NCBI GenBank assembly: GCA_947474495.1 | Contig: CANJIM010000024.1 | Location: 1 to 40,081, forward strand | Direction of reading: 5' to 3' | Length of the DNA: 40,081 nucleotides | Source of the DNA: Rhodospirillaceae bacterium | GTDB taxonomy: Bacteria; Pseudomonadota; Alphaproteobacteria; SMXQ01 | Shown here: in pieces, positions 13,355-33,332 of the stretch | Layout of the letters: each line of letters begins with the position of its first letter | Numbering within the stretch: the stretch's first letter is position 1 | Translations under genes and position numbers: made by a program | Notes under the pieces: generated by a model | The model's input: only the letters and a program-made list of their open reading frames with translations | Told to the model about the DNA's origin: nothing | The model's database searches: none

Positions 13355-13933
13355 ATGAAGATCTATTACAACGTCACATCGCCTTACACGCGCAAAGTCC
13401 GCATCGTTCTGCACGAAAAAGGCCTGTTCGATGTCACCGAGCAGATCCTCGTCGATCCTTGGGCGGATCCGGCGGCGCTACATGCCACCGTGCCGGTCGG
13501 CCGCGTGCCGGCACTCGTCACCGACGACGGCCTGGTGCTCAGCGAAAGCACGACGATCTGCGATTATCTCGATACGCTGCCCAGTGGGGCATCACTCATC
13601 GGCAAAGACCGCTGGCCAGTGATGGCGCGGGTGGCCGTCGCGCAGGGCATCATCGATGCCTCCTTCGCCATCGCCATCGAGGCACGCCGGCCCGAAGCCT
13701 TGCGCTCGACCGATGCTGTCGCGAGACACAAGCGCGCCATCCTGCGCATTCTCGCCAGCGCCGAAGCCACGGATGGTCGCTTCGATCTTGGCGACATCAG
13801 CCTAGCCACTGCTCTGGGCTATCTCGATTTGCGCGTGCAGGACGTCGATTGGCGGAAGGCCCGTGCGGACATCGCCGGCTGGTACGCCACGGTCAGCCAG
13901 CGCCCCTCGATGATTGCGACCAATCCGACCTAA
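13355..13933 (+). CDS. Glutathione S-transferase family protein
   Basis: A 192-residue soluble GST. The N-terminal thioredoxin fold has YYNVTSPYTRKVRIVL with Ser9 at the usual glutathione-activating position, the cis-proline segment VGRVPALV and the gamma-glutamyl-binding LSESTTICDYL. An all-helical C-terminal domain follows. The length is slightly short, as in many bacterial GST-like proteins of unknown substrate. A near-perfect ribosome binding site (AAGGAGG), formed partly from the stop of the MFS remnant, lies 7 bases before the ATG. With that transporter broken, this gene depends on whatever promoter survives upstream. It converges on the amidohydrolase gene. Confidence 0.88.
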   Translation: MKIYYNVTSPYTRKVRIVLHEKGLFDVTEQILVDPWADPAALHATVPVGRVPALVTDDGLVLSESTTICDYLDTLPSGASLIGKDRWPVMARVAVAQGIIDASFAIAIEARRPEALRSTDAVARHKRAILRILASAEATDGRFDLGDISLATALGYLDLRVQDVDWRKARADIAGWYATVSQRPSMIATNPT

Positions 13934-13949
13934 GCGACCGGCAACACTC

Positions 13950-15110
13950 TCAAGGCTCGCCGAAGAAGCGGACGGGATTGTCCCACATCATCTTCTTCAT
14001 GGCGGCTTCGCCCATCGCGCTCTGCCAGGGCAAGACGCGATCCACCGATTCCGGAAACCGCGATTCGGCATGGGGGTAATCTGAGCCGAACATGAGGATA
14101 TGATCGCCCAACAGTTCGGTGACATGCTTGGCCATGAGCGGGCCTTCATGCTGCTCGATCGAGGCGAAGAAACGGCCGCCCGTCACGTAGTCGCTAATCT
14201 TATGCTTCAGCTCGGCGACATAGCCGACATAGATCGCCTGATCGTCGAGCCGGTTCGCCCAGAACGGCAGCCAGCCGAAGCCCGATTCCAACACGCCGTA
14301 GCGAAGGCCCGGATAGCGGTCCATCAAGCCGCCGCCGATAAAGGCGGCCATGGCACGCATCGCCGCCCAGGGATGGCTGCCGCTGCGCCCGATGAAGGGA
14401 TTGCCCCACATGTCGCGGTAGCCCGGATAGCCCCAGGCGAGGCTGTGATGGATGACGGCAAGGTTATGCTTCTGCGCCGCTTCCCAAATTGGATGAAGGT
14501 CGGGGTGATCCAGCGGATAGTCGAGCGGCAGGCTGGGATGGACGGCGACCACCCAGGGCTCCTTGCCCCAACGGTTGATCTCCTCCACCGACCCTGCGAT
14601 CGACATCGGCCCCACGCTCAGGCAGGACTTGAGACGGCGCGTGTCGCGGCCACAGAATTCATGAAGATAGCGGTGCTGCGCGCGGATGAACTCCATCTCG
14701 ATCTCGGGATCGCTATGGCCGACCCCGCCGACACTGACGATGAAATGCACGTCGACGCCTTCGGTATCCATGTCGCGCAGGCGCGCGGCAGAGTCTTCAT
14801 CCGCTCCGCCGTAGGAGGGAAAGCTGACGCCCATGAAATGCTGGAAATGGCGCTCGGCATTCTCGTTCGGCCCCGCATCGCCCAGTCGGCGCGGCTTGTT
14901 CTTGCTCCAGCCCTGGCGGTCGGCAAAGTTGAAGCGGTGGCGATAAGGCGGCTGATAAGTCTCGCCCGCCCAGCCGATCTTCACTTCTCGCAAGCGGCTA
15001 TCGATGTCGGGCACCAGCTTCAGCAGCTTCTGCGACAGATGCGGCCGCAACGTTTCCGCCGACGGGCCGACATGCGTGTCCGTATCAAAGATTTTCATCC
15101 CATTGCGCAT
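13950..15110 (-). CDS. Amidohydrolase-2 family protein (ACMSD-like TIM barrel)
   Basis: A 386-residue TIM-barrel metal enzyme. The N-terminal metal motif is FDTDTH (Asp9, Asp11, His13) in place of the HxH of classical ACMSD. Later ligands are visible in AVIHHSLAWGYPGY and FGSDYPHAESRFPES, and GVLESGFGWLPFWANRLD is typical of this subgroup. Family members are hydrolases or non-oxidative decarboxylases of aromatic and related acids. RBS AAGGGG precedes the ATG. It is the last gene of a four-gene unit with a class II aldolase, TctC and TctAB, only 19 bases after the permease gene, which suggests that it acts on the imported carboxylate. The exact reaction is unknown. Confidence 0.88.
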   Translation of the reverse strand: MRNGMKIFDTDTHVGPSAETLRPHLSQKLLKLVPDIDSRLREVKIGWAGETYQPPYRHRFNFADRQGWSKNKPRRLGDAGPNENAERHFQHFMGVSFPSYGGADEDSAARLRDMDTEGVDVHFIVSVGGVGHSDPEIEMEFIRAQHRYLHEFCGRDTRRLKSCLSVGPMSIAGSVEEINRWGKEPWVVAVHPSLPLDYPLDHPDLHPIWEAAQKHNLAVIHHSLAWGYPGYRDMWGNPFIGRSGSHPWAAMRAMAAFIGGGLMDRYPGLRYGVLESGFGWLPFWANRLDDQAIYVGYVAELKHKISDYVTGGRFFASIEQHEGPLMAKHVTELLGDHILMFGSDYPHAESRFPESVDRVLPWQSAMGEAAMKKMMWDNPVRFFGEP

Positions 15111-15129
15111 AACGTTCCCCTTTAATTTC

Positions 15130-17160
15130 TTATTTGAACAGGCCTGCGATCCACTCGCCGAAGTAAGGCTCCGGCCAATAGACGCCCATGTAATAATCCA
15201 GCAAGCCGTAGGACATGCCGGTGACGATCAAAATCCCGATGATCGAGGTGATAACGGCGCTGCGGCCCTTCATCATCGCGAGCGGCAGGCAGGCGGCGAA
15301 CAGGATCGAGCCATACATCAGGCCGATTGTGCTGATCGCCAGCAAATAGCAAGCCATAGCGATCGCCAGCTTCACGCCGTTGGCCAGGGCTTCCGGCACG
15401 AGCGCGCTGCGCAGCCCGATATCCATGATCTTGCCGGTGCGCCTGCCGCGGCCGAAAATCAATTGGAAGGACATCAGGACCAGCACGACGCTGCAGGTCG
15501 CGATCGGCAAGAAGCGAGCCGAATCCGCATAAGACGCGGAGCCGACGATGCCGTAAACCGCGACCGCCATGAGGGCCAGAGTGAACAGATGCTCGCCGCG
15601 CCAAGGCGCCAAGAGACGGTCTCGCAAACTCAGCGAGGCGTGCGCTTGCGCCGCCACGATATCCTCGTCGTCCTGCATCGCGGCGGCCGTAGAGCGGTTG
15701 CTGCGCATCAGCAGCACCGTCGTCGCCACGGTGATGACGATCAGAGTCAAGGTGATCGGACGGGTGATGAAGCTGATCGCGCCATGCGCCGACAGAGCGC
15801 TTTGCAGGTTTTTCTCGATCACGCCGCCCAGGATGAAGCCGAGGATCAACGGCGCGCGCGGCCAGCGATAGGCCTTCATCAGCAGACCGACCGGCGCAAA
15901 GACCAGCAGAATGATGACCCCGAACCAGCCATCGCCCGACTGAAAGGCCGACAGGAAGGAGATCGGCAAAATCACGGCGGCGATGCCGATGTAGGGAATC
16001 GTCGTCAACTTGGCGAGCTGCGCGGTCATGCAGAGGCCGATCGCCACCATGATGAGATTGGCGATGCCGAAACTGACCGCAATCATGATCGTGATGTCGG
16101 CATGACGATCGAGCATCTGCGGACCGGGCGCGATGTTGTAGGCCAGCATCGCATAGAGAATGAAGACCCAGGAGAGGCCTCCCGGCACACCGAAGGCGAG
16201 CGTCGGGATCGCCTGGCCGCCCTCTTTCGAGTTCTGCGCGGATTCGGCGAAGATCACGCCGTCCAGCGAGCCACGGCCGAACTGCGACTTATCCTTGGAG
16301 AGCGCCACGCCCACCGCATAGGACAGCCAGTCGATCACTGCGCCGCCGATGCCCGGCACCATGCCGAGAAAGACGCCGAGCAGAGAATGGCGAATGGTGA
16401 TCTTCCAACGCTTCATTCCGGCCTTGGCGCCCTCGATCACTTCCTTATTCGAGATGACCGCGACGCCCTTGGAGCTGACGGCTTTGCCCGTCGCGCTCAG
16501 GTCGAACACCTCGGGCAGCGCGAAGATGCCGAGCGTCATGGCGATCATCGGCAAGCCGTCCGACAAATTCAGGTCGCCGAAGGTGAAGCGTTCGGTGCCG
16601 GTGCCCCAATGCACCCCGACCGCACTGAGCAGCAGGCCGATCATGCCGGCCGTGATGCCCTTCGCCATCGCGCCGCTGCTGAGGACGGAGACCATGGCGA
16701 TGCCGAAGATCGCCATGGCGGCGATTTCCGAATAGCCGAAATTCAGGATGAACGGGCGGATGATCGGAATGGTGATCACCAAGGCGATGGCGCCGACGAT
16801 GCCGCCCAGGCCCGCCGCGGCGTAGGTTGCGCCGAGGGTGTGGGCCGCCTTGCCGCGCTCCGCCAGTTGATGGCCTTCGAGGAATGTCACCTGCGTCGCC
16901 GCACTCGGATAGCCCAGCAGGATGGTCGGCACCGTGTCCAGCGAGCTCGACACGCCGCCGATGGTGGCCAGCAGAACGATGCCGATGAGCGGGTCTTCAA
17001 TGGTGAACAGGATGAAGGGAATGGCGATTGCCATGACCATCGGCGTGCCGACGCCGGGCAGAAGCCCGATCAAGGCAGCAACAAATACGCCGGTCAACAA
17101 CGCGCCCCAATAGCTGAGCGTCGCCAAATGGGCTAGGCCAGCCAAAATCGTATCGACCAT
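15130..17160 (-). CDS. Tripartite tricarboxylate transporter, fused TctA-TctB permease
   Basis: A 676-residue inner-membrane protein, well above the roughly 500 residues of a normal TctA. Residues 1 to about 490 are TctA: GLLPGVG (32-38) and the pseudo-repeat GMVPGIGG (266-273), AESAQNSKEGG (305-315) and FGVPGG (323-328). After a polar linker (RSNRSTAAAMQDDEDIVAAQ) a second block from about 525 has the four-helix layout of the small subunit TctB. No separate tctB is nearby, which supports a true fusion. Secondary transport of carboxylates, driven by an ion gradient, would use the TctC protein encoded just upstream. The substrate is not evident; family substrates include citrate, tartrate and aromatic dicarboxylates. 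Confidence 0.9.
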   Translation of the reverse strand: MVDTILAGLAHLATLSYWGALLTGVFVAALIGLLPGVGTPMVMAIAIPFILFTIEDPLIGIVLLATIGGVSSSLDTVPTILLGYPSAATQVTFLEGHQLAERGKAAHTLGATYAAAGLGGIVGAIALVITIPIIRPFILNFGYSEIAAMAIFGIAMVSVLSSGAMAKGITAGMIGLLLSAVGVHWGTGTERFTFGDLNLSDGLPMIAMTLGIFALPEVFDLSATGKAVSSKGVAVISNKEVIEGAKAGMKRWKITIRHSLLGVFLGMVPGIGGAVIDWLSYAVGVALSKDKSQFGRGSLDGVIFAESAQNSKEGGQAIPTLAFGVPGGLSWVFILYAMLAYNIAPGPQMLDRHADITIMIAVSFGIANLIMVAIGLCMTAQLAKLTTIPYIGIAAVILPISFLSAFQSGDGWFGVIILLVFAPVGLLMKAYRWPRAPLILGFILGGVIEKNLQSALSAHGAISFITRPITLTLIVITVATTVLLMRSNRSTAAAMQDDEDIVAAQAHASLSLRDRLLAPWRGEHLFTLALMAVAVYGIVGSASYADSARFLPIATCSVVLVLMSFQLIFGRGRRTGKIMDIGLRSALVPEALANGVKLAIAMACYLLAISTIGLMYGSILFAACLPLAMMKGRSAVITSIIGILIVTGMSYGLLDYYMGVYWPEPYFGEWIAGLFK

Positions 17161-17189
17161 TACTACCCCCGATCCTCAACGCTTGAAGC

Positions 17190-17220
17190 GCCGGCACCGG
17201 CCACGACGGCCGATGCCGGC
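17190..17220 (-). terminator. Intra-operon hairpin between tctC and tctAB
   Basis: Arms of 13 bases (17190-17202 and 17208-17220) pair with a single mismatch around a 5-base loop. It sits directly after the tctC stop on the minus strand and lacks a T-run, so it is more likely a processing or partial-termination hairpin. Its position matches the hairpin after aapJ. Confidence 0.55.
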
Positions 17221-17227
17221 ATGACGG

Positions 17228-18325
17228 CTAGAACCGCTTGCGCGCCCAGTCTTCCCAGGTTTTGAAAGCGTCCTGGAACTCGACGTAGTCCTTCACCATT
17301 TGCTTGATGTCGCGCTCGACAATCTCGCCTGGGGTGTATTGCACGGGATCGCCCTGCAGCACCTCCAGCTTCTCAGCGAACTCCTTGTCTTTCAGCAAGG
17401 CCGCGTAGGACGTGCGGAAGGCTTCGATGATCGGATCCGGCGTCTTGGGCGGCGCCATGAAGATTTTGCTGTAGCGGTCGATCAGGTTGCTGAGCGCGAT
17501 GAACTGCCGGCGGTTCTCGGGATCCGGAATCAGATCTGCGGCATAAGGCACTTCCGACGGCATGCCGATTTCCTTGTTCGCGCGTACCTCGACGTCCGGG
17601 GCTTCGATGATGGCGATCGGCCGGACCGTGCCGTCCTTGAGCCAGCCCGGCCGCATCACCGGCAAGCCGAACCACGCCGTTCCCGCGCCGCCCGGCATCC
17701 AGGCGTTGGTGTCGCCGCGTTCGAGCTCAAGCAGGCTGTCGGCGGTGCCCGCCGCGCCGGGAATGAACTTCATCGGGATGTTGAGCCATTCCGACAGGGC
17801 GGCCATGCGCATCGCGCTCGCCTGCGATGGCGTCCGCCACCCCATGCGGACGACTTCCTTGCCGTTCACAGCCTCGCGCAGAGTCTTGTAAGGGAAGGTC
17901 TTGTAGCCGAAGAGGATGCTGGCCGACGCGACATGCGTGCCGATCATGCGGTTTTCCTCGACCTTATATTCGGCCTGAGGAACCGAAAACTGATTGGTCA
18001 CGTTGGGGCTGCCGGTCAGCTCGATGGTCATGCCATCCGGCGGGCTCTTATAAAGGCGATTGGCCGATGCCGTGTTCGGCGTGATGTTGGTGACTTGAAA
18101 GCGCGGATGACCGGGCATGTATTTGCCCCAGTTGGCCGCGAAATGCCTGGCCTGCAGATCGGTGCCGCCGCCAGGACCGAATCCGACCTGCATGCGGATC
18201 GTCTTGCCGGCGAAGTATTTGGCGGCGTCGAACTTCGTCTCCTGCGCTTGCGCAGGATCGATAGCCATCCACATGACGGTCGATAGCAAAAAAGCCACGC
18301 AAGATTTTGCGGTGCGCTTTCCCAT
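17228..18325 (-). CDS. TctC/Bug family periplasmic solute-binding protein
   Basis: A 365-residue binding protein for the TctAB permease. The ATG at 18325 is chosen because GAGAGGGGAG lies just upstream and because it begins a signal peptide (basic MGKRTAKS, hydrophobic core, cleavage likely after PAQAQ, about residue 28). The Bug fold is seen in YFAGKTIRMQVGFGPGGGTDLQAR (first carboxylate-binding loop) and NITPNTASANRLYKSPPDG. The classical PGAGG loop is replaced by a divergent NTASAN segment. It is the second gene of the operon and precedes the fused permease, so this binding protein is the probable specificity determinant. Confidence 0.88.
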   Translation of the reverse strand: MGKRTAKSCVAFLLSTVMWMAIDPAQAQETKFDAAKYFAGKTIRMQVGFGPGGGTDLQARHFAANWGKYMPGHPRFQVTNITPNTASANRLYKSPPDGMTIELTGSPNVTNQFSVPQAEYKVEENRMIGTHVASASILFGYKTFPYKTLREAVNGKEVVRMGWRTPSQASAMRMAALSEWLNIPMKFIPGAAGTADSLLELERGDTNAWMPGGAGTAWFGLPVMRPGWLKDGTVRPIAIIEAPDVEVRANKEIGMPSEVPYAADLIPDPENRRQFIALSNLIDRYSKIFMAPPKTPDPIIEAFRTSYAALLKDKEFAEKLEVLQGDPVQYTPGEIVERDIKQMVKDYVEFQDAFKTWEDWARKRF

Positions 18326-18381
18326 GACGTTCTCCCCTCTCGCTGTAGGCGGCTCGATCTGCGTCGAGTCCGCCCGGTTAT

Positions 18382-19116
18382 CTAGCCTTTCGACAACTCC
18401 ACGTAATATCGCCACGCGGCCGCCTGGCGGGGCGAGCCGCCGCTGGCGTCCTTTTGGCGCTTTTTTTCGAGAAACAGTTTGAGGTCTTCCTCAGGAATGG
18501 TCCGCGGCTGGCCGAGCAGATGGGCCTGATAATTCATCTCTGCCGCTTCATTGAGTTGAATCGCGCGGATCGCCGCGTCTTCGACCGACGCGCCGACGCT
18601 GGTGATACCGTGCCCGCGCATCAAACAGACCCGCTTGCTGCCAAGGGCTGCCGCCAAGTCGTCGCCGAGCTGCTCGTCGTCGATCAGAACGCTGCGATCG
18701 TAGGTCGGGATGCCGTCGAGTATCAGGTCCAGGCTGCTGGGATCGTAGGCGCCATAGAGCGGCGCGATATCCTTACCGCAGATCGTGAAGAGAACGACCG
18801 TCGAGGGATGCACATGGACCACGCTACGCACATCGCTGCGGGCGCGATAGAGGCGCGTGTGAATGTAGACTTCGATCGGCACGGCAATACCGTCCGGCCC
18901 GTCGATCTTATTGCCATCGAGATCTACCGTGATGACTTGCTCGACAGTGGTGAATCTCACGCCGACTTCGGCGCGGCCGCGCCCGCGAATGAAAATTCGC
19001 TTCCCATCGTCGGCCAGACAGCTGATATGGCCCGTTGCGGCCTTCGTCAGATTCATCGAACCGAGTACGCGGCAAGCTTGCGCGACGAGTTCGCGCGACT
19101 CTAAATCCGTCGGCAT
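18382..19116 (-). CDS. Class II aldolase/adducin family protein
   Basis: A 244-residue metal-dependent enzyme. The family zinc-type ligands are visible: His101 and His103 in VVHVHPSTVV and His169 in LMRGHGITSVG; Glu82 in PIEVYIHTRLY is the usual acid. Family reactions are retro-aldol cleavage of sugar phosphates and decarboxylation, for example of dihydroxyphthalate; substrate-phosphate loops are not obvious, so a decarboxylase or aldolase on an acid is plausible. The start at 19116 is preferred because GGGGAGGGG precedes it and MPTDLESREL is a normal N-terminus. It is the first gene of the TTT operon, 56 bases before tctC. The promoter must lie in 19117-19300; I see no convincing -35/-10 pair. 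Confidence 0.87.
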   Translation of the reverse strand: MPTDLESRELVAQACRVLGSMNLTKAATGHISCLADDGKRIFIRGRGRAEVGVRFTTVEQVITVDLDGNKIDGPDGIAVPIEVYIHTRLYRARSDVRSVVHVHPSTVVLFTICGKDIAPLYGAYDPSSLDLILDGIPTYDRSVLIDDEQLGDDLAAALGSKRVCLMRGHGITSVGASVEDAAIRAIQLNEAAEMNYQAHLLGQPRTIPEEDLKLFLEKKRQKDASGGSPRQAAAWRYYVELSKG

Positions 19117-19300: not shown

Positions 19301-19335
19301 AAAAAAAGCCCGCCTCGATGAGACGGGCTTTTTTT
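19301..19335 (-). terminator. Rho-independent terminator after the orphan TctC gene
   Basis: On the minus strand a stem of GCCCGTCTC and GAGGCGGGC (one G-U pair) with a 3-base loop is flanked by seven A and followed by seven T. It lies 15 bases after the stop codon at 19350. The A and T runs make it usable in both directions. Confidence 0.9.
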
Positions 19336-19349
19336 ATAGCTCGGCGTGA

Positions 19350-20372
19350 TTATTTCATCGCGGCTGCAACCTGGTCGATCACGGCCTTCGGCGTTTCGTA
19401 GACCTGGGCGTAAAGCGCCGCCACCTCTTCGCCACTCATCGGCCCCTGCGGGTCGAGACCGCGCTTGTTGGCATCCGCTTTATATTCAGCATCGCTGGTC
19501 ATGGCGACGAACGCTTCGCGCAGCGCCTTCAGGCGATCGGCCGGCAGGTTGGGCGGCCCGGCGATCGGCCGGCCCGCTTCCGACGGCGCAAAGATGAAGG
19601 TCATCGCCTGCTTCTGCTCCGGCGTCTTGGCGATCTCGAAGGCCGTTGGCACATCGGGATAATCCGGATGACGCTTGATCGATGCCTGCAGCATGATGAT
19701 GAGCTTCTTGTCCACAAGCAGCTGCGGCACCGCCGTCTGCATCGAATCGACCGAGGCGAAACGGCCATGGGCCTCGCCGCGCTCGATGGCGATGAAAGTC
19801 TCGCGGCTGCCTTGATAGCCGGTGATCAACTTGAACTTGGTGCCGAGGATCGCATTCAGCACCTTCGGATAGATGTCGGTGGTCGCCGCCGCGCCGGTGC
19901 CGGCGACGATCGTCTCTTTGATAAAGAGGTCCTCGGCCGTCTTGGTCGGCGCCTGATGCCAGACGGCGAGCACGGAGTGGGTGTTGCCGAGGCTACCGAT
20001 CCAGCTGAACTTCGTCGCCTCGAAGCGGGCATTCCCGCCCGGATTGAGCAACGGATCGACGGCGATCGGGCCGACATATCCCAGTACCGTGCCGTCCTTG
20101 GCTGCCACGTTATAAAGATGATTGCCGGCGACCAGGCCGCCGCCACCCGGCATGTTCTGCGCCATCACGTTGGGATTGCCCGGCACGAACCTGCCGTAAT
20201 ATTGCGCCATAGTGCGGGCCGAGGTGTCGAAGCCGCCGCCGGGCGTGCCGGCGATCAGAATGGTGATCGTCTTGCCTTTGTAGAACTCCGCCGGCGACTG
20301 GGCAGACGCCACGGCAGTGGTGAGCAGCAGGGCGCTGGCGACCCCAAGCGTCGCCTTCAGGGTGCGGGACAT
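19350..20372 (-). CDS. TctC/Bug family binding protein (orphan)
   Basis: A 340-residue periplasmic binding protein of the Bug type. It starts with a signal peptide (MSRTLKATLGVASALLLTTA, cleavage after VASAQ), then YKGKTITILIAGTPGGGFDTSAR and VMAQNMPGGGGLVAGNHLYN, the two carboxylate-binding loops, both intact. The ribosome binding site AGGAGG is strong. No TctA/TctB is adjacent on its own transcript, so it is one of the many orphan Bug proteins that may share the TctAB fusion encoded 2.2 kb downstream. It lies 114 bases after a gentisate-dioxygenase-like gene on the same strand, so an aromatic or hydroxy-acid ligand is reasonable but unproved. It ends at a strong terminator. Confidence 0.9.
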   Translation of the reverse strand: MSRTLKATLGVASALLLTTAVASAQSPAEFYKGKTITILIAGTPGGGFDTSARTMAQYYGRFVPGNPNVMAQNMPGGGGLVAGNHLYNVAAKDGTVLGYVGPIAVDPLLNPGGNARFEATKFSWIGSLGNTHSVLAVWHQAPTKTAEDLFIKETIVAGTGAAATTDIYPKVLNAILGTKFKLITGYQGSRETFIAIERGEAHGRFASVDSMQTAVPQLLVDKKLIIMLQASIKRHPDYPDVPTAFEIAKTPEQKQAMTFIFAPSEAGRPIAGPPNLPADRLKALREAFVAMTSDAEYKADANKRGLDPQGPMSGEEVAALYAQVYETPKAVIDQVAAAMK

Positions 20373-20486: not shown

Positions 20487-21533
20487 TCAGGCGCGCGGCC
20501 GTTCTTCATAAAAGGCCAGCTTCTTCTGCAAGGGCGCGTCGTCGATGCGAATAAGCCGCGCCGGCTGCTTGCCACCGGCCTTGTGCATGAGTTGCGCGAA
20601 AACCGTTGTCGAGAAGGTGTCGCCGGCCTTCCAAGCGAAAGACTCGCCGTTGACCGTGGAGACGCCCTCACCCTCGACGCAATGAAACACCGCGCTCGCC
20701 GAGCGCAGCGGCGGCATCGCCGTTTCACCGGCCCGCAGCAGCATGGCGGTGAATCCCAGGGTCGGCAGGCAGCTGTCGCCGGTCTCCGGATTGACGAAGG
20801 CCAACTCGACGGCTTCGCCCGGCGCCGCCACCGATGCCATGCGGTCCAAGGCGGCGCGCGTGCGCGCCCACGGATAGCGCATCAAGGGATAGGCCGGGCG
20901 CGGCGCGCCAAGCGGGCGGACGGGCAACAAGCCAGCCTCGCTATATTCGACCTGCGAGGCGTCGGGACGGTTGGCCGCCGCCTGCAGCTTGCCTTCGACC
21001 GCATATGAGCCTTCGAGATAGACGAACAACGGCAGATCGAGCGCATCGAGCCAGATCACCGGCTCCTTGCCGTCATGGCCATGGTCGTGGCGCTGGCCAC
21101 CCGGCGTCAGAATCACGTCGCCGCGCGACATCGGGCATTTCTCGCCCTCGACGATGGTATAGGCCCCTTCGCCCTCGACGATAATGCGCGCCGCGCTCGG
21201 CGTGTGCTTGTGCGACGGCGCGGTTTCGCCGGGCAACAGAAGCTGCAGGCCACAATAGATCACCGAGGTCGCCTGCATGGCACCATTGCCGCGACCGGGG
21301 TCGGACAGCACCAGGACCCGGCGCTCGGCCTTTTCGATCGGCGTCAGTTCGCCGGCCTGCAGCAGCAACGGCCGGATGCGGTCGATGGCCCATAGACATG
21401 GCTTGGTGACGGGGCGCGGCGCGTCATGCGGCAGCACATTGCGCATCATCGGCCAGAGCGGCGCGACATTCGCCTGCGTCATCGCCTCGCGGTAATCGGC
21501 AGGCAGGCTCTCCAAAGTTCCCAGTTCGGCCAC
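20487..21533 (-). CDS. Gentisate 1,2-dioxygenase-like bicupin protein
   Basis: A 348-residue bicupin of the gentisate/salicylate/1-hydroxy-2-naphthoate dioxygenase family (extradiol-type ring cleavage using Fe(II)). The first cupin carries the metal site: His108 and His110 in PSHKHTPSAARIIVEG and His149 in GQRHDHGHDG. The second cupin (AVFHCVEGEGVSTVNG) has lost the HxH, as is usual for the family. The N-terminal part LPADYREAMTQANVAPLWPMMRNVLP also fits. The start is GTG at 21533, set by AAGGAGA eight bases upstream. No maleylpyruvate isomerase or fumarylpyruvate hydrolase gene is adjacent, so the physiological substrate is uncertain. It is probably co-transcribed with the downstream TctC gene. 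Confidence 0.88.
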   Translation of the reverse strand: MAELGTLESLPADYREAMTQANVAPLWPMMRNVLPHDAPRPVTKPCLWAIDRIRPLLLQAGELTPIEKAERRVLVLSDPGRGNGAMQATSVIYCGLQLLLPGETAPSHKHTPSAARIIVEGEGAYTIVEGEKCPMSRGDVILTPGGQRHDHGHDGKEPVIWLDALDLPLFVYLEGSYAVEGKLQAAANRPDASQVEYSEAGLLPVRPLGAPRPAYPLMRYPWARTRAALDRMASVAAPGEAVELAFVNPETGDSCLPTLGFTAMLLRAGETAMPPLRSASAVFHCVEGEGVSTVNGESFAWKAGDTFSTTVFAQLMHKAGGKQPARLIRIDDAPLQKKLAFYEERPRA

Positions 21534-21629: not shown

Positions 21630-21917
21630 CTAATGCGCGCAGCTCTCGCCAAGAGGGAGAGGAGCTTCAGGCCCCTCTCCCTTCACTGACTCGCTATCGT
21701 CGGTATCGGATTGCAGCAAGCCTTCCAGTTCCTTGGCCGCCTGGCGCGAGGTCTGGATCATCTGCGCCTCGTCTTGATAGACCGCATGTTGTTCCTGAAG
21801 GGTCTTTTCGTCATGCGCCAGGAAGCGCCGTAGGCTGATGCGTGCTTCCTCGCGATTGACTCCCAGCTCGATCAGAAGTTGTTCCGACAGGAACAAGCTG
21901 GAATAGAGCGTTTCGCG
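21630..21917 (-). pseudogene. KefB/KefC-type potassium efflux protein, C-terminal remnant
   Basis: About 75 codons resemble the extreme C-terminus of a glutathione-gated or related K+/H+ antiporter: RETLYSSLFLSEQLLIELG, RRFLAHDEKTLQEQHAVYQD, then IQTSRQAAKELEGLLQSD. The membrane domain and Rossmann (TrkA-N) domain are missing. Similarity begins abruptly at about 21917, where the plus-strand TauD remnant starts. The last 19 residues (from ESVKGEGPEAPL) come from an intergenic repeat and look like read-through beyond the original end. There is no credible start codon. Non-functional. Confidence 0.75.
21655..21681. repeat. GGGAGAGG/CCTCTCCC inverted repeat
   Basis: Perfect 8-base arms (21655-21662 and 21674-21681) around an 11-base loop at the 3' end of the kef remnant. 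Hairpins with a similar core are common dispersed intergenic elements in proteobacterial genomes and often act in transcription termination. Only one copy is seen in this window. Confidence 0.45.
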
Positions 21918-22279
21918 GCGCGGAGATCGGCAACGTCGATTTGATGAAGCCGCTCTCGAACGTCGAGGTCGACGACATCCACAAGGCCTTCGCCAAGCAT
22001 CCGGTTACGGGCAAGAAGCTGCTGTTCGTCAACGCCAGCCAGACGACTCACATCAATGATGTGCCGCGCGCCGAAAGCGACGCGGTCATGAAATTCCTCG
22101 CCGATCATTTCGCCAATCCGGAATGGGTCGTGCGCTTCAAGTGGACGCCCCATTCGATCGCCGTGTGGGACAACCGCTGCACGCACCATCGCGCCATTTG
22201 GGACTACCACCCGAACGTGCGTTCGGGCTTCCGCATCCAGATCAAGGGTAGCCAGCCGCCGATCCCGGCTTACGCCTAA
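21914..22279 (+). pseudogene. TauD/TfdA-family dioxygenase remnant with internal deletion
   Basis: The frame opens with RGAEIGNVDLMKPLSN, the N-terminal region of a TauD-type Fe(II)/2-oxoglutarate dioxygenase (about residue 20 of a normal protein), and passes within 20 codons into HPVTGKKLLFVNASQTT, which belongs near residue 170. About 120-130 residues between them are missing, including the HxD pair of the facial triad. The C-terminal part is well preserved: WTPHSIAVWDNRCTHHRAIWDYHP with the last His ligand and FRIQIKG with the 2-oxoglutarate arginine. The start of the gene is also missing at the junction with the kef remnant. It cannot bind iron normally. It reads on towards the ABM gene. 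Confidence 0.82.
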
Positions 22280-22299
22280 GCGAACAGAGGCAATCGTAG

Positions 22300-22683
22300 A
22301 TGGCACAGGAACCGCTCGCCGAGCTCGACAACGTCCTGCACATCTACGATTTTCGCGTCAAAGCCGGTATGGGCGATGAATTCATCGCCCTTTTTAATGC
22401 CTTCGATTATTCCGACGACAACGTGATGCACGCCTCACCCGCCCAGGTGAAGGACGGCGTGCTATGCCGCGACACGGAAGATCCCGACCGCTTCTATCTC
22501 GTCGGCGAATGGCGCAGCGTCGAAGAGCATATGGCGATTCGCAAGGAGCTGATCGAACGCACCAAGGGCAAGCGCGGTTTCGTCTCGCTCATCGAAGGCG
22601 GAAAATTCGCGCCCAACTACGGCAAGGTCGTTTCCAGCACGCCGGCCGAAGTTCTCCAGCGCGCCGCTAAAAAAACTAGCTAG
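22300..22683 (+). CDS. Small ABM-domain (dimeric alpha-beta barrel) protein
   Basis: A 127-residue soluble protein. LHIYDFRVKAGMGDEFIALFNAF, DRFYLVGEWRSVEEHMAIRKEL and SLIEGGKFAP follow the strand-helix pattern of antibiotic-biosynthesis-monooxygenase-type ferredoxin-like domains, which form dimeric barrels and include cofactor-free oxygenases and heme-degrading enzymes, as well as many proteins with no known role. It has an AGAGG site 9 bases before its ATG and lies 20 bases after the TauD remnant, with which it was probably co-transcribed. It overlaps the convergent NMT1-like gene by eight bases. Confidence 0.65.
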   Translation: MAQEPLAELDNVLHIYDFRVKAGMGDEFIALFNAFDYSDDNVMHASPAQVKDGVLCRDTEDPDRFYLVGEWRSVEEHMAIRKELIERTKGKRGFVSLIEGGKFAPNYGKVVSSTPAEVLQRAAKKTS

Positions 22684-23599
22684 GCCAGAAGGCGCGGGCT
22701 TCTATTGAGACGATCTCGTCGTAGCTCGGATTGCCCTTGAGGATGCCGATGTCGCGCGAGAAGGCGTTCATACCTTCGACAAACTCTTTGGAAATCACTG
22801 GATCGTAATAAGGCAGATCGCGGCGGATCAGCTCGGCGATCAATTCGGCTTCCGACGCCGGGAAATGCTTGCGGCCGACTTTGGTCGCCAGATCCGGGTC
22901 GGCCTTGAGCGCCGCATGCGTCTTCAAGATCGCGCGCACCGCCGCGCCGGCAAACTTGGGATTGTCCTTGAGCAGCGCGTCGGTCGTCGCCAGGGAGGCC
23001 ATCGTGTAATTGAAGCAGGGCTTCGGTCCATCGCCGCGCCGCACGTCGAGCACCACCGTCCCCGCCCCGCTGCGCACCGCCACTTCGGTGCCCATGCCGT
23101 TGGCCCAGAAGCCGTCGATCTTGCCTTCGGCCAGCGCCTTGGCGGCGGTCACGCCGAAATTCACCCCGGCTCCCACGGCGCCCGGCACCGGCGCGATCGT
23201 CACCTTGTCGCGCTCCAGATCGATGCCGCCTTCCTTGAGCAGACCGCGCAGGCCCATCTCGACCCAAGGCGCGGCGCCGATGCTCTTGCCCTTCACCACC
23301 GAGAGATCCCCGCGCTTTGCCTTCAAGTCGGCGCGCATCACGAGAAACCAGTACATGCCTTGCGCCTGGGCGCAGAGCAGCTTGACGCCCTGCCATTCGG
23401 GAAAGGCGGCGAGCGCCGAATGGGCGGAACCGCCGACGAACTGGATATTGCCGTCGCGCAATTCGCGATAGGCGCGGTCGACCGGAAAGATCATCTCGAA
23501 TTCGACGTCGAGGCCTTCAGCAGCGAAGAAGCCGAGTTCGACGGCGGCGACGGCGGGAAAATAGGAATTCGAGATGAGATCGGGAACGGCGAGTTTCAT
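22676..23599 (-). CDS. NMT1/THI5-like ABC substrate-binding protein, no signal peptide
   Basis: A 307-residue protein with the fold of SsuA/TauA/ThiY-type binding proteins: LAVPDLISNSYFPAVAAVELGFFAAEGLDVEF at the N-terminus, FVGGSAHSALAAF and GFWANGMGTEVAVR later. These bind nitrate, sulfonates, taurine or pyrimidine precursors. Unlike normal members it begins directly with the first strand (MKLAVPDL) and has no signal peptide; the frame does not offer a better upstream start. No ATPase or permease gene is adjacent. It may be cytoplasmic, with a sensory or enzymatic role, or it may have lost its export signal. It lies 52 bases after an amidase remnant on the same strand. Confidence 0.78.
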   Translation of the reverse strand: MKLAVPDLISNSYFPAVAAVELGFFAAEGLDVEFEMIFPVDRAYRELRDGNIQFVGGSAHSALAAFPEWQGVKLLCAQAQGMYWFLVMRADLKAKRGDLSVVKGKSIGAAPWVEMGLRGLLKEGGIDLERDKVTIAPVPGAVGAGVNFGVTAAKALAEGKIDGFWANGMGTEVAVRSGAGTVVLDVRRGDGPKPCFNYTMASLATTDALLKDNPKFAGAAVRAILKTHAALKADPDLATKVGRKHFPASEAELIAELIRRDLPYYDPVISKEFVEGMNAFSRDIGILKGNPSYDEIVSIEARAFWPS

Positions 23600-23651
23600 G
23601 TCGCGAAGGCTCCAGCGGATGGAAGACGGCCGCTATAGGGCCAGGAAAAGC

Positions 23652-23981
23652 TTACGGCTGCAAGATCGCGAGCAGACCGCCCGCCACCGAGACCGCCGCC
23701 GCGTCGCTGCCCATGAATCCGAGAACCTGTAGACCGAGCGGCATGCCGCCGACCTCGAAGACCGGCAAGGACAGCGCCGGCACAGCGAGCATGGAGCCCG
23801 GCACCGCGAAGATCGGATCGCCGGTCAGCATGCCCTTGGGCGCGGGGCCCGTGGCCGCCAAGGTGATGCAGGCATCGAAACGTTCGGCCAGCGCGTTGCG
23901 ATACGCCGTCTCGACAGGATCGGCGTTGAAATCCTGCGGATTGAAGTTGAGGCCGCCAAATGCCTTGCTGAGCCCGGTCAT
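23652..23981 (-). pseudogene. Amidase signature family, C-terminal remnant
   Basis: About 95 codons match the end of an amidase (AtzF/GatA-type): ERFDACITLAATGPAPKG, then GDPIFAVPGSMLAVPALSLP and GMPLGLQVLGF. The Lys-Ser-Ser catalytic region and more than 300 residues are missing. An ATG at 23981 exists but leads into residues unrelated to amidases, so translation is doubtful. It precedes the NMT1-like binding-protein gene on the same strand; the intact pair may once have served uptake and hydrolysis of an amide. Confidence 0.78.
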
Positions 23982-24199
23982 GACCTACATCGCCCGTTGA
24001 ACTTGAAAATCCCTGAACGGCCGCGAAAATGCTGTCGCGAGCGGTCCATGCGCAAAGAATACAGGTACCGATATATCTGTCAACCTACCCGGCCAATACC
24101 AACCGAAGATGCCCGTTTCGCGAGCAATTGCTACTTGCCGCTGGGCACATGGGCGGCGATAGTCTGGCCCGCCTACCCTACTGTTCCGAGGAGTTCCGC

Positions 24200-31881: not shown

Positions 31882-32508
31882 ATGCACTACATGAATTTTT
31901 CTAAATTATATCAACGGCTTGAATGCCACGGCATGCGCCGTGGCGGTCATTGGTCCGACCATGACAACCTCGCCGGCCCCCGTGCCGGCCGGCATGGACC
32001 GCATAACGATCATCGCAGCAATCATCGCGGCGGCGGTCGCCGGCGCATGTTCGACAACGGCGAACTGCGCTTGATCCTTCTGCACCTCGTCGCCGAACAG
32101 CCGCGCCACGGCTACGACCTGATCCGCGCCATCGAAGAGCTGAGCGGCGGCGCCTATGCCCCCAGCCCAGGCGTGGTCTACCCCACCCTCACCTTGCTCA
32201 GCGACATGGGCCAACTGACCGAACAGGCCGCCTCCGTCGATCATGGTGGCGCGCGTAAGGCTTTCGCCATCACCGATGCGGGCAAAAGCCAGCTGACCGA
32301 ACACGCGACGACCGTGAAAGCGCTGTTGGAGCGGCTCGGCGCGGCGGCAGAGTTGCGCGAACGCACGGATGCGACGCCGGTGCGGCGCGCCATGCACAAT
32401 CTCAAGAGCGTGCTGATGGACAAGCTCGCCGACCGCTCCGACAAGGACATGGTTCTGAAAGCGGTCGCCCTGCTCGACGAAGCGGCGCAGAAAATCGAGC
32501 GGCTCTGA
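31882..32508 (+). CDS. PadR-family regulator, YqjI-like, His-rich N-terminus
   Basis: A 208-residue protein. Residues 17-55 are rich in His, Gly and Arg (HGMRRGGHWSDHD, GRHGPHNDHRSNHRGGG), followed by a PadR winged helix: GELRLILLHLVAEQPRHGYDLI and YAPSPGVVYPTLTLLSDMG. The arrangement closely follows E. coli YqjI, a nickel-responsive repressor with a metal-binding N-terminal tail; here the tail has histidines but only one cysteine (Cys15, lost with the later start). Starts at 31882 and 31891 are weak, and an ATG at 31933 in the loop of a hairpin gives MRRGGHWSDHD. The stop overlaps the next start (TGATG). It probably represses its own operon in response to metal. Confidence 0.85.
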   Translation: MHYMNFSKLYQRLECHGMRRGGHWSDHDNLAGPRAGRHGPHNDHRSNHRGGGRRRMFDNGELRLILLHLVAEQPRHGYDLIRAIEELSGGAYAPSPGVVYPTLTLLSDMGQLTEQAASVDHGGARKAFAITDAGKSQLTEHATTVKALLERLGAAAELRERTDATPVRRAMHNLKSVLMDKLADRSDKDMVLKAVALLDEAAQKIERL

Positions 32509-33332
32509 TGAACCAGATCGATCGCCTGCGTCGTCGTTTCGCCGATGAGATGGGAGGGGCTGCTAATGAATCAGTTGGCCTCCACGAGACGCGCCGGATG
32601 CGTCACGAGGTGCGCCGCCGCACCCTCACGGTCAGCCGCATCGAGCATCTCACGCCGCGCATGATGCGCGTTCATTTTATCTCGCCCGAATTGGCGGATT
32701 TCGCCAGCGCCGCACCCGACGACCATGTGAAGCTATTCTTCCCGCAAGCCGGCAGAATCGACGGCAAGCCGGTCATGCGCGATTTCACGCCGCGCGCCTT
32801 CGACCGCGCCGCCGGCCGCCTGACCATTGACTTCGCCCTGCACGAGAACGGGCCGGCAACCGAATGGGCGGCCAACGCCAAAGTCGGCGACAGGCTCGAC
32901 ATCGGCGGCCCGCGCGGCTCCCAGATCGTGCCCGACGATTTCGACTGGTATTTGCTGATTGGCGATGAAAGCGCACTACCGGCCATCGGCCGGCGTGTCG
33001 AGGAATTGCGCGCCGGCGCGCCGGTGACGACGCTGATCGCCATCGTGCACCCTTACGAGGAGCAGCGTTTCAAAACGCAGGCGGTCTGGACCCCGATATG
33101 GCTCCATCGCGGCGAGCCCAATAAAGGCGACGCCGACCTACTGCGCGATAGACTGGCCGACTTTACGCCGCCGCCTGGCGACGGATTTATCTGGATCGCT
33201 GGCGAAGCCGCCATCGTGCGGACGCTCCGCGCCCACATGATCGAGGAGCGTCATCATCCGAAAGCCTGGGTCAAGGCGGCTGGCTATTGGCAACGTGGCA
33301 AAGCCGATGCGCATGTCGAAATAGGCGACTGA
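32508..33332 (+). CDS. Siderophore-interacting FAD protein (YqjH/ViuB-like ferric reductase)
   Basis: A 274-residue flavoprotein of the siderophore-interacting family. RDFTPRAFD is the FAD-binding RxxTPR motif, GPRGSQIVP and LLIGDESALPAIGRRVEEL are family hallmarks of the NADPH side. Relatives reduce ferric siderophores in the cytoplasm to release iron. Its ATG overlaps the regulator's stop, so translation is coupled. The same two families, YqjI and YqjH, are linked in E. coli, where the genes are divergent; here they form an operon. It converges on an MFS gene after 26 bases. Confidence 0.9.
   Translation: MNQIDRLRRRFADEMGGAANESVGLHETRRMRHEVRRRTLTVSRIEHLTPRMMRVHFISPELADFASAAPDDHVKLFFPQAGRIDGKPVMRDFTPRAFDRAAGRLTIDFALHENGPATEWAANAKVGDRLDIGGPRGSQIVPDDFDWYLLIGDESALPAIGRRVEELRAGAPVTTLIAIVHPYEEQRFKTQAVWTPIWLHRGEPNKGDADLLRDRLADFTPPPGDGFIWIAGEAAIVRTLRAHMIEERHHPKAWVKAAGYWQRGKADAHVEIGD

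Follow-up and report, generated by a model that had tools for sequence, protein, structure and literature searches.

The stretch of DNA analyzed here (the window; 40,081 nucleotides) is the entire contig C24, one of the 127 contigs that make up an alphaproteobacterial assembly of 3.0 Mb and 96% completeness. Four genes on its minus strand, all open and free of internal stops, encode a class II aldolase-fold protein (ALD), a periplasmic binding protein (TctC), a fused membrane protein (TctA-TctB), and a PF04909 protein (AH). The features of the operon, from its upstream end, are as follows.

About 19301 to 19330, minus strand: stem-loop between the TctC2 gene and ALD, read by eye as AAGCCCGTCTC ATC GAGGCGGGCTT and followed by a T-run.
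18382 to 19116, minus strand: ALD, 244 amino acids, predicted class II aldolase-fold decarboxylase of the PhtC (3,4-dihydroxyphthalate decarboxylase) family (NCBIfam NF053537, 201.0 bits).
17228 to 18325, minus strand: TctC-type periplasmic solute-binding protein of a TTT importer, 365 amino acids (Pfam TctC, 23 bits; GPGGGTD motif).
15130 to 17160, minus strand: fused TctA-TctB membrane subunit of the TTT importer, 676 amino acids (Pfam TctA, 319 bits).
13950 to 15110, minus strand: AH, 386 amino acids, PF04909, candidate amidohydrolase-related dinuclear oxygenase (ARO), assigned from the dinuclear ligand set, Foldseek, and an AlphaFold2 model.

The intergenic gaps are 56 nt (ALD/TctC), 67 nt (TctC/TctA-TctB), and 19 nt (TctA-TctB/AH), and a G-rich, purine-rich Shine-Dalgarno-like stretch precedes each of the four starts, the preferred TctC start being the ATG at 18325. 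These features bear out the sequence-only reading of four tightly spaced same-strand genes with ribosome binding sites. Pfam assigns Aldolase_II to ALD (121 bits) and Amidohydro_2 to AH (75 bits), both above cut-off. The downstream limit of the operon is a convergent GST gene (13355–13933). The terminator-like stem-loop at 19301–19330 sets the operon apart from the upstream genes; an automated scan did not list it. The nearest of these upstream genes encodes a second TctC (TctC2; 19350–20372, minus strand) and follows a double-cupin gene resembling gentisate 1,2-dioxygenase (20487–21533, minus strand), which scores 264 bits against a cut-off of 442. The latter gene was rejected as an operon member because the stem-loop intervenes and the gene is missing from the sister locus. 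Together with TctC2 it is possibly a separate gentisate/salicylate-type unit. The region 21680–24000 looks like a recombination or decay zone and holds gene remnants: an unidentified piece (21680–21920, minus strand), a TauD fragment that matches no more than the final third of the family (21941–22279, plus strand), an amidase-like C-terminal piece (23652–23981, minus strand), and an NMT1-type protein. A PadR-like regulator followed by a siderophore-interacting-protein (SIP)-type FAD reductase is found at 31882–33332 (plus strand); a similar SIP gene adjoins ALD in one related locus (L041).

The importer was assigned from its domains. TctA matches residues 20–440 of the fused subunit. The TctB domain in the C-terminal 210 residues scores 27.7 bits in the window and 30.7 bits in the sister genome, against a cut-off of 29.1. 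TctC falls below its Pfam cut-off of 27 bits; it carries the canonical GPGGGTD motif, is 25% identical to the neighboring bona fide TctC, and has an 83% identical orthologue in the same position in the sister genome. Its structure model has a pLDDT of 42. All three TTT components are present, with TctB and TctC sub-threshold in the window, and the original identification of TctC and a fused TctA-TctB is upheld by these domains and by the TctB score of the sister orthologue. The terephthalate transporters TphC/TpiAB (PMC8556258) are tripartite aromatic acid importers of the TctA/TctB/TctC type that also adjoin aromatic catabolic genes, but here TctA and TctB are fused and TctC is under the Pfam cut-off. 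For river water, a purely correlative link between TTT importers and the degradation of organic matter from land has been reported (PMC7597016).

The metal site of AH was compared with those of the AROs (PMC10811679, PMC10401708, PMC7782822). The AH residues D11, H13, H222, E275, D344, and H347, within the motifs DTDTH, IHHS, LESGFGWLPF, and SDYPHAE, correspond to all six ligands of AibH2 (D25, H27, H211, E265, D337, and H340; PMC7782822, PMC10401708). A further acid two residues past the last histidine (D342 in AibH2, E313 in PtmU3) is said to mark binuclear centers, and AH has E349. The seven positions are at least 97% conserved among 66 homologues and invariant in a 26-sequence alignment. 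The AlphaFold2 model of AH (pLDDT 90.5) retrieved AROs (SfbO, AibH1H2, TruffO, and PtmU3) at Foldseek PDB ranks 1–19, DitZ was also among the structural matches, and the nearest PDB chains in a profile search were again AROs. The first decarboxylase, 5-carboxyvanillate decarboxylase, is at rank 20, and the margin between the two fold classes is moderate, with TM scores of about 0.6–0.7 for both. AH shares the six ligands, the seventh acid, and the closest folds with SfbO, TruffO, PtmU3, and the AibH1H2 enzyme encoded in the Aib operon of Rhodococcus wratislaviensis (AibH1H2, AibG, AibF, AibT). It differs from them in being only about 20% identical and in lacking both an H1-type partner and a neighboring Rieske ferredoxin gene. 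Relatives of AH in the plasmid records searched are all distant, at no more than 27% identity over the full length.

If AH were instead a metal enzyme without oxidative chemistry (a hydrolase, hydratase, or decarboxylase), with either the imported compound or a product of ring cleavage as its substrate, the operon would be a classic catabolic pair of PF04909 and class II aldolase enzymes. Decarboxylation, hydration, or hydrolysis is the activity of most characterized PF04909 enzymes (PMC10811679), LigW and ACMSD appear among the structural matches at ranks of at least 20, and the operon lacks a redox partner. The active-site residues argue otherwise. LigW aligns to AH through VGHMGE-ALPYW and DYPYQ, so that the Glu275 equivalent is absent and His347 and Glu349 are replaced, and the ACMSD residues are His9, His11, His177, and Asp294, with His228 (PMC6362003). 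AH does not have this ACMSD/LigW-type decarboxylase signature (a catalytic histidine after strand 6, H228 in ACMSD, and no second-site acid or histidine); it has E275, H347, and E349. The LigJ/LigI-like PF04909 proteins of the neighboring pathways provide an internal contrast, since they read SHGGGAIPY and TECPG and lack the dinuclear set. Hydroxylation by AH is likelier than decarboxylation or C-C hydrolysis because the full dinuclear ligand set is present and the ACMSD/LigW residues are absent. The six ligands also occur in at least six further PF04909 proteins among those sampled in the same genome, so the signature marks a metal site rather than a reaction and is not proof of oxygenation. 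On balance, a non-oxidative AH is rather unlikely and an oxygenase is modestly favored. From its sequence and model, AH is a candidate two-metal, oxygen-using enzyme of the ARO class, which was discovered recently and has been little studied. Given the ligand set and the ARO-like fold, the initial view that it decarboxylates or cleaves C-C bonds is probably mistaken. The genome contains many PF04909 proteins, several of them adjoining lone TctC genes (L005, L006, L007, and L008).

A small Rieske protein is encoded beside about 90% of AibH2-like genes (PMC10401708). We found no ferredoxin or Rieske protein in or adjoining the window operon, and a motif search of 76 loci for a Rieske ferredoxin near AH returned none that was both close and small. 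An adjacent redox partner is a statistical rather than an absolute ARO feature; AH lacks it and is therefore termed a candidate only. Seven AH homologues of 43–47% identity, from soil-type alphaproteobacterial assemblies (L082, L089, L090, L094, L096, L101, and L107), lie within 0.6 kb of a Fer2 ferredoxin and an FAD ferredoxin reductase. In these loci the AH homologue, which has the full dinuclear ligand set, is divergent from a putidaredoxin-like Fer2 ferredoxin that is followed by the reductase, and the ferredoxin and the reductase are each at least 72% identical among the seven. A P450 as the true partner of this pair was considered and rejected, as no P450 motif was found in those loci. 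The gene order suggests a candidate ARO electron chain with P450-type partners in place of the small Rieske protein. By association, this linkage points to oxygen chemistry within the broader AH family, and it bears indirectly on the window gene: in the AH tree a long branch separates the clade of ferredoxin-linked homologues from the module group. In the part of the tree covering L040–L072, the module group (99/96 support) is nested among Chloroflexota sequences, mostly Dehalococcoidia and SAR202, a position that suggests transfer between Chloroflexota and the alphaproteobacterial lineage of the window.

ALD is no orphan by family search. Its best NCBIfam model is the PhtC equivalog NF053537, where its 201.0 bits exceed the cut-off of 200 by a marginal one bit; the next model scores 78.5. 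The same model gives 204.4 bits for the sister orthologue, 202.3 for the orthologue in genome G004, and 178–188 for three others. ALD is 36% identical, at 96% coverage, to the PhtC of Arthrobacter keyseri pRE1, and the class II aldolase metal site (E82, H101, H103, and H169) is invariant, including in pRE1 PhtC. In the pRE1 phthalate cluster the class II aldolase gene, which we take to be phtC, directly follows the Rieske, ferredoxin, and reductase genes. By these scores and residues, ALD is a predicted member of the PhtC 3,4-dihydroxyphthalate decarboxylase family. A sugar-phosphate aldolase was rejected, as the best such models score 55–77 bits against cut-offs of at least 250. The vitamin B6 route was also discarded; its enzyme (HMPDdc, mlr6791, 2z7b) is a structural relative (50.5 bits) that is not specially close.

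The neighborhoods of ALD orthologues were compared in ten other genomic regions from the same bacterial family. Varying subsets of a Rieske oxygenase, a Gfo/Idh/MocA dehydrogenase, LigB, a LigJ/LigI-like PF04909 protein, and a LigK-like RraA protein surround them, a predicted layout of a phthalate-like upper pathway joined to a protocatechuate-4,5-cleavage-like lower pathway. The genome of the window encodes a second ALD (68% identity; contig C20) inside a phthalate-like cluster of that kind. The actinobacterial phthalate operon phtBAaAbAcAdC of A. keyseri pRE1 has in common with the window operon a PhtC-type decarboxylase, there the last upper-pathway step, and an aromatic dicarboxylate context that is also seen in relatives of the window operon. 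It places a Rieske dioxygenase and a dehydrogenase before PhtC, whereas in the window operon a candidate oxygenase of PF04909 and a TTT importer take their place. ALD could instead decarboxylate a ring-cleavage product after the imported acid is cleaved, in the manner of DhbB, a class II aldolase-fold decarboxylase of 3-carboxy-2-hydroxymuconate semialdehyde (PMC6362003), and ALD orthologues do adjoin LigB extradiol dioxygenases. This order of events is improbable, because the best family match, PhtC, acts on intact dihydroxyphthalate and because the Rieske oxygenase and Gfo/Idh/MocA genes that accompany ALD orthologues are expected upstream of ring cleavage.

Conservation of the operon was examined in related genomes. 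The exact order ALD-TctC-TctA-TctB-AH is present in the window and in genome G001 (loci L044/L111), the sole other species of the genus searched, with identities of 69% (ALD), 83% (TctC), 76% (TctA-TctB), and 83% (AH). In this sister species the four genes end a run of twelve genes in one direction (L111, 3138–16059) that reads ABC ATPase, permease, RidA, LigB, LigJ-like, three RraA, ALD, TctC, TctA-TctB, and AH. The run thus contains two importers (ABC and TTT) and three different RraA-type aldolases, of which the third is LigK-like. LigB, LigJ/LigI-like, and LigK-like genes, resembling those of the protocatechuate 4,5-cleavage pathway (LigAB, LigI/LigJ, and LigK), lie directly upstream of the module. 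The RidA gene hints at an enamine or imine intermediate, and an amino or N-heteroaromatic acid is a possible substrate on this hint. Beyond the genus the arrangement changes. L040 keeps TctC-TctA-TctB-AH with ALD not adjoining; its upstream neighbors encode a LigB-type enzyme and a binding protein. In L041, L042, and L043, ALD and AH flank an ABC ATPase, a permease, and a binding protein in place of the TTT importer, and in L043 a LigB gene directly precedes ALD. In G004 the two enzymes are encoded on separate contigs, with the AH gene facing that of a different fused TctA-TctB in convergent orientation. Overall, ALD, AH, and a transporter are linked in five of the six genomes with an AH of at least 66% identity, and no close AH was found outside the bacterial family of the window in a sample of 385 alphaproteobacterial genomes. 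Because the same enzymes flank an ABC importer in three contigs, it is the enzyme pair, and not the transporter type, that is conserved. The pair, whose importer can be exchanged, is kept across a lineage of order rank, whereas conservation of the exact four-gene set is limited to a single genus. The suggested search for the four-gene order thus found it in two species of that genus and, beyond it, the pair with a swapped importer; linkage in relatives, whose lack would have counted against the module, was found. Gene order, protein families, metal-ligand residues, linkage, and ring-cleavage neighbors in relatives are all read from the sequences themselves.

This linkage also bears on whether the genes serve different substrates, with the TTT importer and AH belonging to one route and ALD to a general phthalate-like route. 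The absence of an adjoining ALD in L040 fits such a division, as do the ALD orthologues of G003, G005, G007, and G009, genomes with no close AH. Co-transcription of genes for different substrates is nevertheless unlikely: ALD and AH stay linked across two importer types in the five genomes, and for a genome of 3 Mb the chance that two single genes fall no more than 5 kb apart is estimated as about 0.3% per genome.

The genome of the window (G000; 3.0 Mb) was searched for the remaining steps. Contigs C51 and C59 each carry, at an end, a LigB orthologue (83–84% identical to its G001 counterpart); the two adjoin a LigJ-like gene (97%) and RidA plus ABC genes, respectively. A LigK orthologue (E below 1e-20) was not found in this incomplete genome, the assembly of which is broken there. 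The 32 Rieske-domain matches in the genome fit an aromatic diet. The proposed uptake-and-breakdown module for a carboxylate gains support from the conserved linkage and the adjoining ring-cleavage genes in relatives. It cannot be called self-contained, as other parts of the genome must supply the ring-cleavage enzymes and the electron donor.

The preferred reading, held tentatively at close to an even call, is that the operon serves the uptake and the upper-pathway conversion of a polycarboxylate with an aromatic (or heteroaromatic) ring, with the oxygenase AH acting before the decarboxylase ALD. Its more general part, uptake and decarboxylation of an aromatic-type acid, is likely. The TctC/TctA-TctB importer would bring the acid into the cell. 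AH, with an Fe2 or Mn/Fe center, would hydroxylate it with O2, drawing electrons from a ferredoxin system whose genes lie outside the operon. ALD, as a PhtC-type enzyme that depends on a metal, would then remove the carboxyl ortho to the hydroxyl to give a catechol-like acid, which a LigB-type extradiol dioxygenase, encoded elsewhere, and LigJ/LigK-type enzymes would convert to pyruvate and oxaloacetate. We infer the direction of the chemistry, the order of hydroxylation and decarboxylation, the aromatic nature of the acid, the O2 chemistry in AH, and the electron donor. A monooxygenase paired with an aromatic decarboxylase is a better reading of the operon than one in which AH decarboxylates or cleaves C-C bonds.

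The native substrates of AROs are mostly unknown, and genome context did not readily reveal them (PMC10811679). The operon ties a candidate ARO to a specific importer and to a decarboxylase whose family works on aromatic diacids bearing hydroxyl groups, and the range of substrates to consider is thereby narrowed. A further suggestion is that other annotated amidohydrolase genes beside TTT importers may encode oxygenases. A bolder and less likely idea is that a PF04909 Mn/Fe or Fe2 oxygenase replaces the Rieske dioxygenase and dihydrodiol dehydrogenase before a PhtC-type decarboxylase, with TTT and ABC importers freely exchanged. If true, this would be a new route into the protocatechuate-type pathway and would give the AROs an aromatic substrate class.
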